From positions 155,261 to 219,260 of the forward strand of contig CASDYG010000001.1 of assembly GCA_949285555.1 (NCBI GenBank): DNA of 64,000 nt, read 5' to 3'. Origin of the DNA: an uncultured Eubacteriales bacterium. Its GTDB lineage: Bacteria; Bacillota; Clostridia; Peptostreptococcales; Anaerovoracaceae. The translations under genes were made by a program, and so were the position numbers. The notes beneath the pieces were generated by a model that saw only the letters and a list, made by a program, of their open reading frames with translations, was not told the DNA's origin and made no database searches. Below are positions 4,674 through 24,465 of this stretch, piece after piece (within the stretch, counting starts at the first letter, position 1; each line of letters starts with the position of its first letter).

Positions 4674-5321
4674 TTACTCCTTAAATATTTTCTTCATATT
4701 ATTGTACGCATTTTCAGAGTGCTCTATTATTAATGATTTTACCTTTGCGCTATCGCCCTCCTCCATTGCTGCAATTAACTGCCTATGTTCTTCTACTGAT
4801 TCTTCCATTCTGGTTTCAACTTTTAATGAAGCCAATCTGAATTTCATTAACTTCTTATGAGTAGGCCCAAGGACTGTAGCTAAGACCGGTCTGTCTGAAA
4901 TTGAGTACATCAGATTATGAAAATCCGTATCAAGGCTAATCACCCTCTCTTCATTACCTTTTTTTGCAAAAAATTCCTGCTCATCAATGAGATTTTTTAG
5001 TTCCTTTAAAATTTCAGGAGTCATATTTTTCATGAGTCCGTCCGCAACATATGGCTCAAGTGTCATCTTTATAAGTAACAGATCCTCTAAATCAGTATTA
5101 GATACGCCTAAAACTTCAATACCTCTGGTAGTTTCACGAATAAGCTTTTCCTGCAAAAGTCTCTTCATTGCTTCTCTGATTGGAGTTCTGCTAACTCCTA
5201 AACTTTCTGCCAGCTTACTTTCACTGAAAATTTCTCCTTTTGCATAGGTACCCTTTAAAATATCATGTTCCAGTGTTTCATACACTTTTTGTGCCAGGGA
5301 AACTGGCTTATATTCTATCAT
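4674..5321 (-). CDS. GntR-family transcriptional regulator (FCD/FadR type)
   Basis: An N-terminal winged helix-turn-helix (about residues 1-70, with SKLAESLGVSRTPIREAMKRL) is followed by an all-helical FCD ligand-binding domain containing metal-binding-like acidic and His residues (DTDFHNLMYS). The ATG at 5321 is preferred over the ATG at 5333 because GAGGTG lies 6 nt before it. The gene is inside the citrate/2-oxoglutarate operon, between Re-citrate synthase (stop 22 nt upstream) and aconitase (3 nt downstream), so it probably controls this operon, perhaps autogenously through the inverted repeat over the -10 box at 6749-6760. FCD regulators often sense organic acids; citrate or 2-oxoglutarate would be a reasonable effector, but this is inference. 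Confidence 0.92.
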   Translation of the reverse strand: MIEYKPVSLAQKVYETLEHDILKGTYAKGEIFSESKLAESLGVSRTPIREAMKRLLQEKLIRETTRGIEVLGVSNTDLEDLLLIKMTLEPYVADGLMKNMTPEILKELKNLIDEQEFFAKKGNEERVISLDTDFHNLMYSISDRPVLATVLGPTHKKLMKFRLASLKVETRMEESVEEHRQLIAAMEEGDSAKVKSLIIEHSENAYNNMKKIFKE

Positions 5322-18817: not shown

Positions 18818-21382
18818 ATGAATTCTCAAAACGAAAATAAATACTACAATATGAATACTGAACAGGTCCTTCATCTTTTAAATAGCTCTAAAGATGGACT
18901 TGCTTCAGACAAAATTGAGTTACAAGCACAGCTATATGGCAAGAATAACCTTGGGGAAGAGAAAAAAGAAGGAATATTCAAAGTATTCTTATTACAATTT
19001 AAGGATTTATTAGTATTCATTCTGATTCTAGCTGCCATTCTTTCCATGGTAACAGGTAATACGGAAAGCTCACTTGTAATACTTGCTGTACTCATATTAA
19101 ATGCCTTGCTCGGTACGATCCAGTACTTAAAAGCTTCCAAATCTCTGGCTTCATTAAAGGCATTATCATCTCCAATGGCAAAAGTCATTCGAGATGGGCA
19201 CACCTTGGAGATAAAGTCTGATGAGGTAGTTGTAGGAGATATAATTTTATTAGAAGCAGGAGATATAGTACCAGCTGATGGTAGAATAATTGAATCATCC
19301 TCTTTACAGGTAAATGAAAGCCATTTGACAGGTGAATCAGTAGCAGTATCCAAAATTGCAGATGAATTAAACAATTCTTCCGATACCTCCCCTGCTCTTG
19401 GGGATCAGTTAAACATGGTATTTTCTGGCTCACTCGTAACATATGGAAAAGCATCTGCTGTAATAACTGCAGTAGGTATGGGAAGCGAGCTTGGTAAAAT
19501 AGCTGGACTGATGAAGAACACCAAAGAGAGAAAAACTCCTCTCCAAAAAAATATGGATTCCTTCAGTACTAAGCTAAGCATCGCCATCGTTATACTAAGT
19601 ATAATTGTATTTTTTGTAAACTATAAAAGAGGAATGGTTCTTACAGATGCCCTGCTCTTTGCCGTAGCACTGGCTGTAGCGGCTATACCTGAGGCTTTAG
19701 CGTCAATCATAACAATTTCATTATCCATAGGTACAGGGCGTATGGCAAAAGAAAAAGCCATTATAAAAAAGCTTTCTGCCGTTGAAGGACTAGGTTCCGT
19801 TTCCATAATTTGTTCCGATAAGACAGGTACACTTACTCAAAACAAGATGACTGTTACAGATGTATACAGCTTAGATAAGGACGATACATTGCTCCTCACC
19901 TGCTCTATACTATGTAATGATGCTATTTTAACTAAGGAAGGACTATTGGGTGATCCAACTGAAACTGCACTTATAGCCCACTACATGACTAAAAAAGATA
20001 ACTATGAGCATATCAAAAATGCTTATCCTGCCATAGATCAGGTACCATTTGACTCCGATAGAAAACTCATGTCATCATTACACGAAATTGATGGTGAGGA
20101 TTTAATTTTTACAAAAGGTGCTCCTGACGTACTGATTTCACGTTGCTCAGGCTTAAGTGAAAAACAGCGCGAGGAAATACTAAGACAAAATGATAGCTGG
20201 TCCTCACAAGGTCTTAGAGTACTTGCCTTCGCGTATAAAAAATTTAATGGTTATAATGATATAAACTTCGATGATGAATATGAACTAAGCTTTCTGGGTC
20301 TTATTGCAGAGATAGATCCACCTAGGGATGAATCTAAATATGCTGTACAGCAGGCTATAAAAGCAGGTATTACTCCAATTATGATAACTGGAGATCATAA
20401 GGTTACTGCAACTGCTATCGCAAAAAGTATTGGTATTTTCAGAGATGGTAATATTGCTATCACAGGCACACAGCTAGATGAAATGAGTGATGAAGAGCTT
20501 TATAATAGTCTTGAGAAAATTACTGTATATGCCAGGGTTTCACCTGAAAACAAAATCAGGATTGTAAAAGCATGGCAAAAGCTCGGTAAAATTGTTGCAA
20601 TGACGGGTGACGGTGTAAATGATGCCCCTGCACTAAAAAGAGCTGATGTTGGCATAGCTATGGGAATTACAGGAACGGAAGTTTCTAAAGATGCTTCGTC
20701 CATGATCCTTGCAGATGATAACTTTGCCACTATAATAAGTGCCGTTTTAAGTGGTAGAAACATATATGAAAATATTAAAAAATCCATCATCTTCCTGCTG
20801 TCAGGAAATATGGCAGGCATTCTGATGGTTTTATATGCTACAATACTTGGCCTTACTACACCATTTACGGCAGTACATCTGCTTTTTATAAATCTTGTAA
20901 CAGATAGTATGCCTGCTTTAGCCATAAGCATGGAGCCTGTTGATCCTACTCTGCTTAATAGGCCGCCAAGACCATCTAATGAGGGTATTCTCAATACCAG
21001 AAACAGCATAGGTATTCTAATTCAAGGAATTCTTATTTCCCTTGCTACCTTCTCATCCTTTTATTATGGACTCAGCTATAGTAATCAAGTAGCTATGACC
21101 ATGTCCTTTGCTACATTATGTCTTGCAAGACTGATACATGGATTTGATTTTAGAGGAAGCAACAGTATTTTTACTGGAGGTATACTAAAGAATATCTTCA
21201 TTATTCTAGCATTTATCGTTGGATTTACTTTACTAGCAGCAATACTATTCCTAAGGCCACTTTGGTCTGCATTTAATGTAGCCAAGCTGCCAGCCTTTGG
21301 ATATGCTTATATACTTATTATGGCACTTATCCCTGCCTTTATTATTCAGTGCTATAAGCTGATAAAAAGTAAAAAGGTATAA
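18818..21382 (+). CDS. P-type cation-transporting ATPase (P2A Ca2+-ATPase type, probable Mn2+ exporter)
   Basis: Integral membrane pump of 854 aa with the phosphorylation motif DKTGTLTQNKMTV near residue 333, the actuator motif LTGESV near residue 170, and the hinge GDGVNDAPALKRADVGIAMG near 600. Ten transmembrane helices can be seen (pairs near 50-90, 250-300 and six after 660). M4 carries PEAL (AAIPEALASII), the P2A-type cation site. The start at 18818 has GGAGG 4 nt upstream. P2A pumps of this sort carry Ca2+ or Mn2+; the manganese riboswitch in the leader favours Mn2+ efflux. It is transcribed alone. Confidence 0.92.
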   Translation: MNSQNENKYYNMNTEQVLHLLNSSKDGLASDKIELQAQLYGKNNLGEEKKEGIFKVFLLQFKDLLVFILILAAILSMVTGNTESSLVILAVLILNALLGTIQYLKASKSLASLKALSSPMAKVIRDGHTLEIKSDEVVVGDIILLEAGDIVPADGRIIESSSLQVNESHLTGESVAVSKIADELNNSSDTSPALGDQLNMVFSGSLVTYGKASAVITAVGMGSELGKIAGLMKNTKERKTPLQKNMDSFSTKLSIAIVILSIIVFFVNYKRGMVLTDALLFAVALAVAAIPEALASIITISLSIGTGRMAKEKAIIKKLSAVEGLGSVSIICSDKTGTLTQNKMTVTDVYSLDKDDTLLLTCSILCNDAILTKEGLLGDPTETALIAHYMTKKDNYEHIKNAYPAIDQVPFDSDRKLMSSLHEIDGEDLIFTKGAPDVLISRCSGLSEKQREEILRQNDSWSSQGLRVLAFAYKKFNGYNDINFDDEYELSFLGLIAEIDPPRDESKYAVQQAIKAGITPIMITGDHKVTATAIAKSIGIFRDGNIAITGTQLDEMSDEELYNSLEKITVYARVSPENKIRIVKAWQKLGKIVAMTGDGVNDAPALKRADVGIAMGITGTEVSKDASSMILADDNFATIISAVLSGRNIYENIKKSIIFLLSGNMAGILMVLYATILGLTTPFTAVHLLFINLVTDSMPALAISMEPVDPTLLNRPPRPSNEGILNTRNSIGILIQGILISLATFSSFYYGLSYSNQVAMTMSFATLCLARLIHGFDFRGSNSIFTGGILKNIFIILAFIVGFTLLAAILFLRPLWSAFNVAKLPAFGYAYILIMALIPAFIIQCYKLIKSKKV

Positions 21383-21511
21383 AAATTAAGGCATGTACAA
21401 AACTAATATATTTTAATGAAATAATGATAAATCTCTATTGCATCGCCATAAATCCATCATTATATAAGTTAAAATTATCTTAAAATTTTTATAACATTTG
21501 AAAATAACATT

Positions 21512-21591
21512 AAAAAACGGAGAAGAATTATTACCTGTTTTTAGAACATTACTGTTTCTATATTAAATGGTACAAATTCATCTCCGTTTTT
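21512..21591. terminator. Bidirectional hairpin between the ATPase and nrdG genes
   Basis: Inverted repeat with ACGGAGA (21517-21523) against TCTCCGT (21581-21587), extended by GAATT/AATTC after one mismatch. It is flanked by an A-run on the left and a T-run on the right, so it can terminate either of the two converging transcripts. The loop is unusually long (about 45 nt). Confidence 0.75.
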
Positions 21592-21602
21592 ATTATTCCA
21601 GA

Positions 21603-22118
21603 TTACATAAACTCACTTTGCAAAATTACCTTTTCTTTCTCCATGGACATTGGTAAATTTATGATTCTCTGATTACTACTACCTCTAAATTTAAGAGTGA
21701 GATCTCGATCTTCTTTCATATATGGGCCATCAATCAAAACATCAACATATTTAAGCAGCCTTCTTAAATCCTCCTCATTTTTTGAGCGTTCCATTAGCTG
21801 CTCAAATGTATATCCCGAATACATTAGGATATGAATGTTTCTTTTTTTCAGAGCAGCAGCAATGTTTGCAAAAGCTTCGCACTGACATGTAGGCTCTCCT
21901 CCGCTAAAAGTTACTTTGTCTACATTCGGATTTTCACTTATTGCCTCAATTATCTTTTCGATTTTACAATCATAGCCACCAGTAAAATCATGGGTTTCAG
22001 GATTATGACAATCGGTACATTTATGAGGGCATCCCTGTGAAAAAATTACAAATCGTATGCCTGGTCCATCTACTATAGATTCTCGAATTATACCCTGTAA
22101 ACGAATGGTATCCTTCAT
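21603..22118 (-). CDS. nrdG: Anaerobic ribonucleoside-triphosphate reductase activating protein
   Basis: Radical SAM enzyme that installs the glycyl radical on NrdD. The cluster motif CPHKCTDCHN (CxxxCxxC) is near residue 30, after GPGIRFVIFSQG. The SAM-binding segment SGGEPTCQ is near 71, and DVLIDGPYM near 127. Length 171 aa is typical. The ATG follows the nrdD stop by 3 nt, so the two are cotranscribed. The enzyme looks intact, which is odd next to an NrdD that seems to lack the glycine it should activate. Confidence 0.95.
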   Translation of the reverse strand: MKDTIRLQGIIRESIVDGPGIRFVIFSQGCPHKCTDCHNPETHDFTGGYDCKIEKIIEAISENPNVDKVTFSGGEPTCQCEAFANIAAALKKRNIHILMYSGYTFEQLMERSKNEEDLRRLLKYVDVLIDGPYMKEDRDLTLKFRGSSNQRIINLPMSMEKEKVILQSEFM

Positions 22119-22121
22119 ATT

Positions 22122-24374
22122 TTAATCCTCTAAGATTCTTTTAATCCTTTCGTGGCCCTCATTTCCATCATTTTCATATCTTCCACATTTTGGGCAGTAA
22201 TTATCAATTATTCCTGTATATCCACAGCAAGGATCTCTATCCACGGGATGATTTATCGAGCCATAACCTATGCCTACTTCTTTCATGTAGCGTACTATTT
22301 CCTCAAAAGCATCTAAATTCTTAAGTGGGTCACCATCAAGCTCTATATAGGAAATATGTCCTCCATTAGTGTATTTGTGATATGGAGCTTCAAGCCTTAA
22401 TTTTTCAAATGCACTGATAGGATAATATACAGGAATATGGAAGCTATTCGTATAATACTCCTTATCTGTAACTCCCTTTATCTCACCAAATCTTTTTTTA
22501 TCAATTCTTACAAATCTGCCTGATAACCCCTCAGCAGGAGTAGCGATAAGTGACCAATTAAGTCCGGTTCTTCTGGCCTCCTCATCCATCCTTTTTCTCA
22601 TGGTTGCCACTATTTCAAGTCCCAGCCTCTGGGCTTCTTCGCTTTCTCCATGATGCTTTCCTATTAAAGCAATAAGTGTCTCTGCAAGTCCGATAAATCC
22701 TATAGTAAGAGTTCCGTGTTTTATTACTTCTTCTACACTGTCCGTAGGCTTTAGATTCTTTGAATCAATCCATACTCCCTGCCCCATTAAAAATGGAAAA
22801 TTCATGGCTTTTTTTTGTGACTGAATACGTAGTCTTTCATTTAACTGACCGATACAAAGCTCCATCATACTTTCTAGGCTTCTAAAAAATATATCTATAT
22901 CACCTTTTGATTGAATGGCAAGCCTTGGCAGATTTATGGAGGTAAAAGATAAATTTCCTCTGCCATAAACTATCTCCCTGCTAGGATCATGTACATTTCC
23001 CATAACCCTGGTTCTACAGCCCATATATGCAATCTCTGTTTCAGGTTTACCTTCAACATAATACTGCTTGTTGAAAGGAGCATCGATAAATGAAAAGTTA
23101 GGAAAGAGCCTTTTTGCAGAAACCTTACAAGCAAGTTTAAACAGATCATAATTAGGATCTGCAGGATTAAAATTAACACCCTCCTTCACCTTGAAAATTT
23201 GAATTGGAAAAATTGGTGTTTCTCCATTGCCAAGTCCAGCATCGGTTGCCTTAAGCACACACTCCATAACAAGTCTTCCCTCAAGACTTGTATTCGTTCC
23301 ATAATTAAGCGAACTAAATGGCACCTGTGCTCCCGCTCTGGAATGCATTGTATTTAGATTATGTATAAGGGCTTCCATAGCCTGATAAGTCTTTCTCACA
23401 ATTTCCTTATCAGCATATGTCTTAGCCTTTTTCTGTGCGTCCACAACCTCTTTTTCAGGTGCCCACGTTTTCATAACATCCCACTCTTTAGCAAGATAGC
23501 TTTCCATATTTCCCATATGTGGCATTAAGTCGTGCTCAGCTTCAATTATTTCTCCTGCCTTTTTCACCTTATCTTCGCCATTATCAATAAATCCCTTTAT
23601 CTCTAATATCTTTCCCAGATTTGACCAATAAAGCTTCTTATAGGTCTTTCGTACCCCTGGTGCCATTGCATAGTCAAAATTAGGTACTGACTGACCACCA
23701 TGCTGATCATTTTGATTGGATTGAATTGCTATACAGGCAAGTGCTGCATAGCTTTCAATATCATTAGGCTCTCTTAAAAAACCATGTCCTGTTGAAAATC
23801 CACCCTTTAAAAGCCCGACCAAATCTATTTGGCAGCATGTCATAGTCAAGGTGTAGAAATCCATGTCATGAATATGTATATCTCCCTCATCGTGTGCCTT
23901 TGCATATCTTGGGTCAATGACATACATCTTGTAAAATTCCTTAGCTCCTTCTGAGCCATACTTAAGCATGGTACCCATTGCGGTATTACCATCAATATTA
24001 GCATTCTCTCGTTTTACATCATTATCCTTTGCATCAAGGAAGGTAAGATCCTCATAGAGCTTCATAAGCTTCATATTCATATCTCTAACTCTAGTACGTT
24101 CAGCTCTATATAATATATATTCCTTGGCAGTTCTGGCATGACCATTTTCTACAAGAGTCTTTTCTACTGCATCTTGTATTTCTTCCACAGTAGGACTCAA
24201 AGAATCCTTACCATCTACTAAACGCCTTTCTACCAGCTTTGCAAGATATTCTGCCATTTCTCTATCTTGTCCTCCGATAGAACTGGCGGCTTTAAATATT
24301 GCATCAGTAATCTTATCTAAGTCAAAATTTACCCTTCTGCCATCCCTCTTAATGATTTCTTTAATCTTTTCCAT
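22122..24374 (-). CDS. nrdD: Anaerobic ribonucleoside-triphosphate reductase, apparently lacking the glycyl-radical C-terminus
   Basis: Class III ribonucleotide reductase, making dNTPs without oxygen. An ATP cone occupies about residues 5-90 (IIKRDGRRVNFDLDKI). The catalytic barrel has TCCQIDL near 178, FSTGHGFLREP near 200 and MGCRTRVMGN near 465. The C-terminal zinc site CCGYTG...CPKCG is near 714-730. Family members continue with a RRITGYLV-type loop carrying the radical glycine; this protein stops at HERIKRILED, right before it. The ATG at 24374 has AAGGTGG 6 nt upstream. The promoter and NrdR-like boxes lie upstream. All else looks intact, so this is either a truncation or a split system. 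Confidence 0.9.
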   Translation of the reverse strand: MEKIKEIIKRDGRRVNFDLDKITDAIFKAASSIGGQDREMAEYLAKLVERRLVDGKDSLSPTVEEIQDAVEKTLVENGHARTAKEYILYRAERTRVRDMNMKLMKLYEDLTFLDAKDNDVKRENANIDGNTAMGTMLKYGSEGAKEFYKMYVIDPRYAKAHDEGDIHIHDMDFYTLTMTCCQIDLVGLLKGGFSTGHGFLREPNDIESYAALACIAIQSNQNDQHGGQSVPNFDYAMAPGVRKTYKKLYWSNLGKILEIKGFIDNGEDKVKKAGEIIEAEHDLMPHMGNMESYLAKEWDVMKTWAPEKEVVDAQKKAKTYADKEIVRKTYQAMEALIHNLNTMHSRAGAQVPFSSLNYGTNTSLEGRLVMECVLKATDAGLGNGETPIFPIQIFKVKEGVNFNPADPNYDLFKLACKVSAKRLFPNFSFIDAPFNKQYYVEGKPETEIAYMGCRTRVMGNVHDPSREIVYGRGNLSFTSINLPRLAIQSKGDIDIFFRSLESMMELCIGQLNERLRIQSQKKAMNFPFLMGQGVWIDSKNLKPTDSVEEVIKHGTLTIGFIGLAETLIALIGKHHGESEEAQRLGLEIVATMRKRMDEEARRTGLNWSLIATPAEGLSGRFVRIDKKRFGEIKGVTDKEYYTNSFHIPVYYPISAFEKLRLEAPYHKYTNGGHISYIELDGDPLKNLDAFEEIVRYMKEVGIGYGSINHPVDRDPCCGYTGIIDNYCPKCGRYENDGNEGHERIKRILED

Positions 24375-24400
24375 ATATACCACCTTGATGTTTTATTATA

Positions 24401-24465
24401 TAACTATATATAGTGTAAATACTTAATATGTAATAAATCATATACTACATAAAGAGGGATGTCAA
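24401..24465 (-). promoter_or_regulatory. nrdDG promoter with a pair of NrdR-like boxes
   Basis: On the minus strand TTGACA (24460-24465), 17 nt, TATGAT (24437-24442). A near-perfect NrdR box, ACACTATATATAGTTA on the minus strand, covers 24401-24416. A weaker second copy lies at 24433-24448, exactly 32 bp away and across the -10 box. Paired boxes about three helical turns apart are the known NrdR arrangement. The first box is convincing; the second is degenerate. Confidence 0.75.

Follow-up and report, generated by a model that had tools for sequence, protein, structure and literature searches.

GrcA/YfiD and Y06I of phage T4 are spare parts of pyruvate formate-lyase (PFL), and the N-terminal part of YfiD has been proposed to act in docking and recognition on PFL. 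According to the accessible portion of Andorfer et al. (2021; PMC8683613), YfiD and Y06I are the only validated spare parts, and others may exist for other glycyl radical enzymes. In the class III ribonucleotide reductase (RNR) of Prevotella copri (PcNrdD), the catalytic cysteines are Cys171 and Cys416 and the radical glycine is Gly711, in the numbering of the accessible portion of PMC11226230. Neither an NrdD divided from a stand-alone loop nor an NrdD-type spare part was found described in the portions seen of the open-access literature, a body of text that leaves subscription papers mostly uncovered.

Here, we analysed a class III RNR locus in a stretch of 64,000 nucleotides (the window) from a gut bacterium. 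Its features, in window coordinates, are:

22122..24383, minus strand: nrdD, catalytic chain of a class III RNR, lacking the glycyl-radical loop (PF13597, ATP-cone, PRK07111)
22122..22245, minus strand: C-terminal end of NrdD, with DRDPCCGY...CPKCGR (three zinc-type cysteines), GHERIKRILED and the stop (sequence, alignment)
21603..22118, minus strand: nrdG, radical-SAM activase, starting 3 nt downstream of nrdD (TIGR02491)
24401..24416, no strand assigned: NrdR-type box upstream of nrdD, 14/16, ACACTATATATAGTTA on the minus strand (consensus score)

The window NrdD has 753 aa from a GTG codon, or 750 aa from the likely ATG start at 24374, and scores above the cut-offs for PF13597 and TIGR02487/PRK07111. 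It matches the ATP-cone profile at positions 2-87 of 88 and PRK07111 with 1112.8 bits, reaching 718 of 746. The PF13597 match covers 1-539 of 562, and the chain stops before the radical glycine; the C-terminal residues are CPKCGRYENDGNEGHERIKRILED, followed by the stop, whereas at the place of the final GHERIKRILED full-length relatives in the same family read GFERIRRITGYLVGT, continuing with RRITGYLVGT... These results confirm a sequence-only reading of this DNA, which had placed the end of NrdD before the radical loop, and a radical-glycine loop in the same chain, by which a class III RNR is recognised, is absent. Since the rest of the profile match is colinear, no radical glycine is apparent elsewhere in the chain. 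The predicted structure is fair (pLDDT 77.5, pTM 0.73), with a pLDDT below 50 for the final 14 residues. As the same reading had stated, nrdG (145.5 bits with TIGR02491, cut-off 126.1) starts 3 nt past nrdD with no frameshifted remainder between them: GYL is absent from all six frames of 21001-22200, in which GY[LIVMA] occurs only as AFGYAYIL and QLGYIKCR, neither of them the loop. A frameshifted remainder of NrdD was likewise not found in the six-frame search of the genome.

The catalytic residues are retained. In our reading of the alignment, Cys180 and Cys453 of the window NrdD are the equivalents of PcNrdD Cys171 and Cys416, and both are invariant in 30/30 aligned NrdDs, 17 of which are loop-less; the NAN motif aligns with that of PcNrdD, where it would map to the NxN flap. 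The zinc cysteines had been described as kept, which holds for three of the four canonical positions; the first is Asp, as it is in full-length relatives. In the 30 aligned NrdDs, split and full-length alike, DRDP[CVI]CG[YF] replaces the first zinc cysteine across this clade (window 22170-22240).

The sequence-only reading had proposed that a separate small glycyl-radical protein restores the function and that the genome be searched for it and for another RNR. A six-frame PF13597 search of the 1.45 Mb assembly (16 contigs, 90.3% complete) gave two matches, the window NrdD and an ORF on contig C5, which is the only other site in the genome where the missing segment 533-562 occurs:

G000:C5:38112-38390 (= L002:1351-1629), outside the window: small loop protein, 92 aa (PF13597 533-562)

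The sequence of this candidate is MIQVTGNAPEREQKRYISYLENKYNRKLESLDIQVDGEYVDLNYRFAPVPFERIRRITGYLVGTMDNWNDAKSMEENDRVKHSLASSQKEIL, its radical-loop stretch is FERIRRITGYLVGT, and the putative radical glycine is Gly59 in RRITG59YLVG. A profile of the protein and 42 relatives aligns with residues 704-739 of P. copri NrdD (E 3.1e-10), a segment that includes Gly711 (PMC11226230, accessible portion), and 20 columns, the loop glycine among them, are invariant in the 43 sequences. Pfam, NCBIfam and PHROGs recognise just an NrdD tail in it, and the GrcA models TIGR04365, NF008341 and NF038360 did not match at E<=0.001; only NrdD models did. Like GrcA, it would be a small stand-alone glycyl radical domain. 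The AlphaFold model is weak (pTM 0.41; pLDDT 71.5 overall and 50-68 in the loop and helix blocks). It predicts a strand-helix-strand-strand fold and, poorly, a loop and a helix after it, and a PDB fold search with it gave no match at E<=0.001. In the window genome the small gene adjoins neither nrdD nor nrdG. Class I NrdAB was the sole class I or II RNR found in this genome. Class I RNR requires O2, and therefore anaerobic growth should need the window NrdD, which should be the working anaerobic RNR of this anaerobe.

We then compared gene content among related genomes. In the genus, 5/5 genomes have an NrdD matching 1-539 together with the small protein, the four others ending NrdD at the same profile position as the window NrdD. 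With all five in agreement, a sequencing error that hides the loop is very unlikely; sequencing error, assembly error and a lone binning error were ruled out by the congeners together with the named genomes below. A second NrdD, reaching 562, lies beside the split one in congener G345. No second complete nrdD was found in the window genome (90.3% complete), nor in congeners G083, G310 and G136 (99% complete).

From the window family, 148 genomes were drawn, 137 of them with PF13597. The long-type small protein, counted as a match of at least 95 bits in an ORF of its own, is present in 43; the small-protein profile matches 78 genomes at E<=0.01, those beyond the 43 only via NrdD C-termini or short loop ORFs. 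The 43 comprise 5 genomes with a loop-less NrdD, 33 with an NrdD match reaching 562 (two of these NrdDs are cut at the N-terminal end, and that of G102 is of another subtype), 4 with no other PF13597 match and 1 with only an NrdD fragment at a contig edge. The small protein stands without another PF13597 match in G053, G017, G041 (92% complete) and G145; genomes with the small protein and no intact NrdD are probably incomplete assemblies.

A stand-alone loop gene accompanies 9/9 loop-less NrdDs in the 148 genomes that are uninterrupted by a contig end or Ns. Five genomes (G000, G083, G136, G005 and G077) have the long-type small gene elsewhere, and four (G082, G135, G049 and G119) have a loop ORF of 61-73 aa within about 200 nt downstream of the loop-less NrdD. 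This count leaves out G118 (runs of N inside NrdD), G122 and G070 (cut by contig ends), and G100, G001, G033, G114, G120, G067 and G105 (match beginning less than 50 bases from the contig start). The NrdD of G077 also ends at profile position 539, and G005 carries an additional NrdD reaching 562. G345, G005 and G518 each have a loop-bearing NrdD in addition, which could make the split enzyme redundant in these genomes. An extra short loop ORF occurs besides another loop gene in G082 (57 aa) and G064 (40 aa) (L074, L075). By contig sequence, the split NrdD and the small protein are also found in the named genomes Peptostreptococcaceae bacterium pGA-8, a record not labelled as a MAG, whose contig is the small-gene contig of one congener, and Gallibacter intestinalis DSM 108706, whose contig is that of G077; a full NrdD with the small protein is found in Anaerovorax odorimutans and Clostridium aminobutyricum.

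The split form is more frequent in f50, a distant family of the same phylum that was picked after its members turned up in the search, the draw of genomes within it being automatic. Among 61 f50 genomes, 58 have PF13597; NrdD is loop-less in 54/58, and all 54 have a separate match near 532-562, whereas such a match occurs in 0/3 genomes having one-chain NrdD only. The loop-less ends were read directly in 28/54 and otherwise taken from profile end positions (529-541). G786 was dropped from the count (contig end at base 5072, NrdD match at 5070), and G789 was counted as loop-less because its ORF ends in FVVDRMK, although the profile match reads through one TGA. The single-contig genomes G622, G784 and G573 have the split form only. 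Cysteine-bearing tails (NCCSATSI, MQCCN, ASCCD, PCDCTR, FCGCE) end 18 of the 24 f50 loop-less NrdDs read (L278-L297, L069-L072) and may be redox-active or replace a zinc ligand. In 20 further genomes, a set biased by having been chosen for holding a stand-alone loop, 9 have a loop-less NrdD (in one case in pieces on two contigs; G689 with a second NrdD to 560) and 11 have one reaching 562. In a draw of 398 genomes from the phylum, 33, the window genome included, have an NrdD-type loop in an open frame of less than 400 aa; they fall in 13 family codes, and two of the matches contain an internal stop.

In f50 an nrdG-like ORF immediately follows the small gene in 15/15 genomes examined (nrdG called by motif), and the small gene therefore accompanies the activase expected to generate its radical; the order is nrdD - small gene - nrdG in 8 of these, and in the other 7 the pair lies away from nrdD. 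An nrdG-like ORF does not adjoin the small gene in G441 and G710, which belong to other families, and a motif search of 43 window-family loci found no nrdG-like neighbour.

We also examined the upstream regions for NrdR-type boxes, scored against ACACWATATATWGTGT, which we take to be the NrdR-box consensus. The sequence-only reading had described a box pair upstream of nrdD; one clear box (14/16) stands, and a search of 250 nt gave no second of at least 12/16. At 30/46 loci a box of at least 12/16 lies no more than 150 nt from the small gene, compared to 10/170 control upstreams, which were intergenic and belonged to other genes at the same window-family loci (Fisher p 7e-17, for genomes that are related and so not independent). 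The 46 come from 58 loci after dropping 11 without an ATG-started small ORF and L152 (short or repeated upstream); they overlap the 43 of an earlier count in part, and a few share a genome or are near-copies. That first count gave 30/43 at this threshold, against a background of 5.6% in shuffles and 1.3% in 1221 windows taken regardless of coding, so that the intergenic control is the fairer one. Boxes of at least 12 are missing upstream of 13/43 small genes; the small gene of congener G083 has none either. In the window genome the small gene has the box CTACTATATATAGTGG at -73 (13/16), which may be an upstream terminator because it sits within a palindrome followed by a T run.

Purifying selection acts on the loop-less nrdD. 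In the genus, silent sites are saturated in 9 pairs, which have a pN/pS of 0.05-0.20, and the one remaining pair has a dN/dS of 0.012; full-length relatives have dN/dS values of 0.028-0.041 (three pairs) and a pN/pS of 0.12 (one saturated pair). Constraint is weaker on the small gene than on nrdD, with pN/pS of 0.11-0.37 in 8 saturated pairs and dN/dS of 0.053 and 0.079 in two others. On a quick, midpoint-rooted tree of 78 non-randomly chosen NrdD cores (41 split, 37 full), the split or full state changes at least 7 times, 6 of them forced by starred branches, and full-length NrdDs nest within the split f50 clade, which suggests repeated splitting or re-fusion. Three one-chain f50 NrdDs nest in this way, in genomes without the small gene (L316/G793, L275-L277), and may be re-fusions of both genes. 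The small protein beside a loop-bearing NrdD in 33/148 family genomes suggests a spare part of the GrcA/YfiD kind that was made obligatory several times; in the simplest course, the spare part would have stood beside a full NrdD first and the built-in loop would have been lost afterwards.

Relatives of the small protein are also carried by viruses. A search of viral contigs confirmed 329 relatives. In the best 80 of the 329 (L195-L274), each locus has a loop ORF, 57-161 aa long and in some cases truncated at a contig end, and a long ORF bearing the loop is absent from all 80. A loop-less NrdD lies within the flank (<=3 kb) in 4 of these best 80 (L225, L246, L254 and L255), with an NrdG-like ORF downstream in 3 of the 4; L246, whose NrdG was confirmed by PHROGs, encodes the loop-less NrdD, the small protein and NrdG together. 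In the other 76 of the best 80, no NrdD was found by motif in a flank of at most 3 kb, which resembles T4 Y06I for PFL, and small proteins without an adjacent NrdD possibly rescue the host RNR. Neighbouring genes in four scanned loci, encoding an endolysin and a holin (L195), a tail protein (L208), an exonuclease (L246) and an HNH endonuclease (L247), fit phage DNA. In phage records, at least 80% of a small protein was covered in 3/13 records with a match. The accessible text of a preprint on Jug phages describes an nrdD in four fragments, with splicing not seen between the 230-AA and 91-AA pieces (PMC12363816); a stand-alone loop protein could explain the unspliced pieces.

Three other explanations were weighed. 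That nrdD is dead or dying, with the small protein unrelated debris or serving something else, would fit the loss of the loop from the chain and the presence of class I NrdAB. We consider it very unlikely, and decay of the gene was ruled out on selection and conservation: instead of relaxed selection or stops scattered within the genus, we observed strong purifying selection and an identical end point in 5/5 congeners, the split form predominates in distant f50 (54/58 NrdD-bearing genomes), and the small gene is conserved (20 invariant columns in 43 sequences). The earlier remark that a dead gene would be odd beside a kept nrdG and promoter box, both of which are indeed retained, is borne out by these results. 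The small protein could instead serve a different glycyl radical enzyme as its spare part, for example the PFL of this genome, which has its own loop and an activase; GrcA/YfiD do so for PFL. This is hardly probable, since the loop scores with NrdD models only, whereas the C-terminus of the genome's PFL does score with GrcA models (below cut-offs), and since the small gene accompanies nrdG in f50 and NrdR-type boxes in the window family.

Another complete NrdD might also lie in sequence missing from the assembly, do the work and leave the split copy auxiliary. The completeness of 90.3% leaves room for it, and G345 and G005 possess such a copy; we regard it as improbable, given that congeners G083, G310 and G136 (99% complete) have none and that the single-contig f50 genomes have the split form alone. 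Taken together, these results argue for a functional class III RNR in the window, with an NrdD whose glycyl-radical domain has probably been relocated to a separate gene, so that two chains would reduce nucleotides jointly, to which we assign a probability of about 0.87 on sequence grounds. The proposal of a separate small protein gains support from the candidate in the same genome and from its tracking of loop-less NrdD across genomes, with NrdR-type boxes here and a place before nrdG in f50.

From the observed gene content, co-occurrence, f50 nrdG linkage, promoter boxes, selection and residue conservation, we infer the following course. NrdG would place the radical on Gly59 of the small protein, which would dock at the open end of the NrdD barrel with its loop beside the initiator cysteine (the PcNrdD Cys416 equivalent), and the complex of both chains would carry out the reduction; the N-terminal ~50 residues of the small protein are probably the docking and recognition module. 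The small protein probably first served as a replacement part when full-length NrdD was cleaved by oxygen, and with the loss of the built-in loop in several lineages it would have turned into an obligatory subunit. We also lean, with some reserve, towards a broad, previously undescribed family to which autonomous glycyl radical proteins of the NrdD type would belong in Bacillota and phages, acting as interchangeable radical subunits. In many species that have a full-length NrdD they would be spare parts, they would be obligatory where the NrdD loop was lost, several independent times, and phage-borne parts would sustain host or phage DNA-precursor synthesis after oxygen damage. If the main reading is true, an RNR of two chains, one of them a detachable radical subunit, would be an architecture new to class III, in an essential enzyme, and the radical domain could be swapped or labelled in trans. 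The genomes supply concrete candidates, isolates included, for spare parts beyond YfiD and Y06I, and they suggest an evolutionary route from repair part to obligatory subunit; many phages would gain a plausible metabolic gene.

Compared to known systems, the window locus shares with the class III NrdDs of P. copri and phage T4 the ATP-cone, the barrel, both catalytic cysteines, the NAN motif, three zinc-type cysteines, the adjoining nrdG and the NrdR-type box, and differs in that the radical glycine would lie on another polypeptide, encoded elsewhere. The split class II RNR NrdJa/NrdJb likewise divides an RNR catalytic chain between two genes, but it is a class II enzyme without a glycyl radical. 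With GrcA/YfiD and T4 Y06I, the system shares a small protein that duplicates the radical-loop end of a glycyl radical enzyme, carriage by phages, and coexistence with the full-length enzyme in other genomes; as with YfiD, a short stretch is present in both chains, as FERIRRI in the small protein and still as HERIKRI in the shortened NrdD. In contrast to GrcA/YfiD, it has an NrdD-type loop and another N-terminal module, and, the window NrdD having lost its own loop, the small protein should be obligatory.
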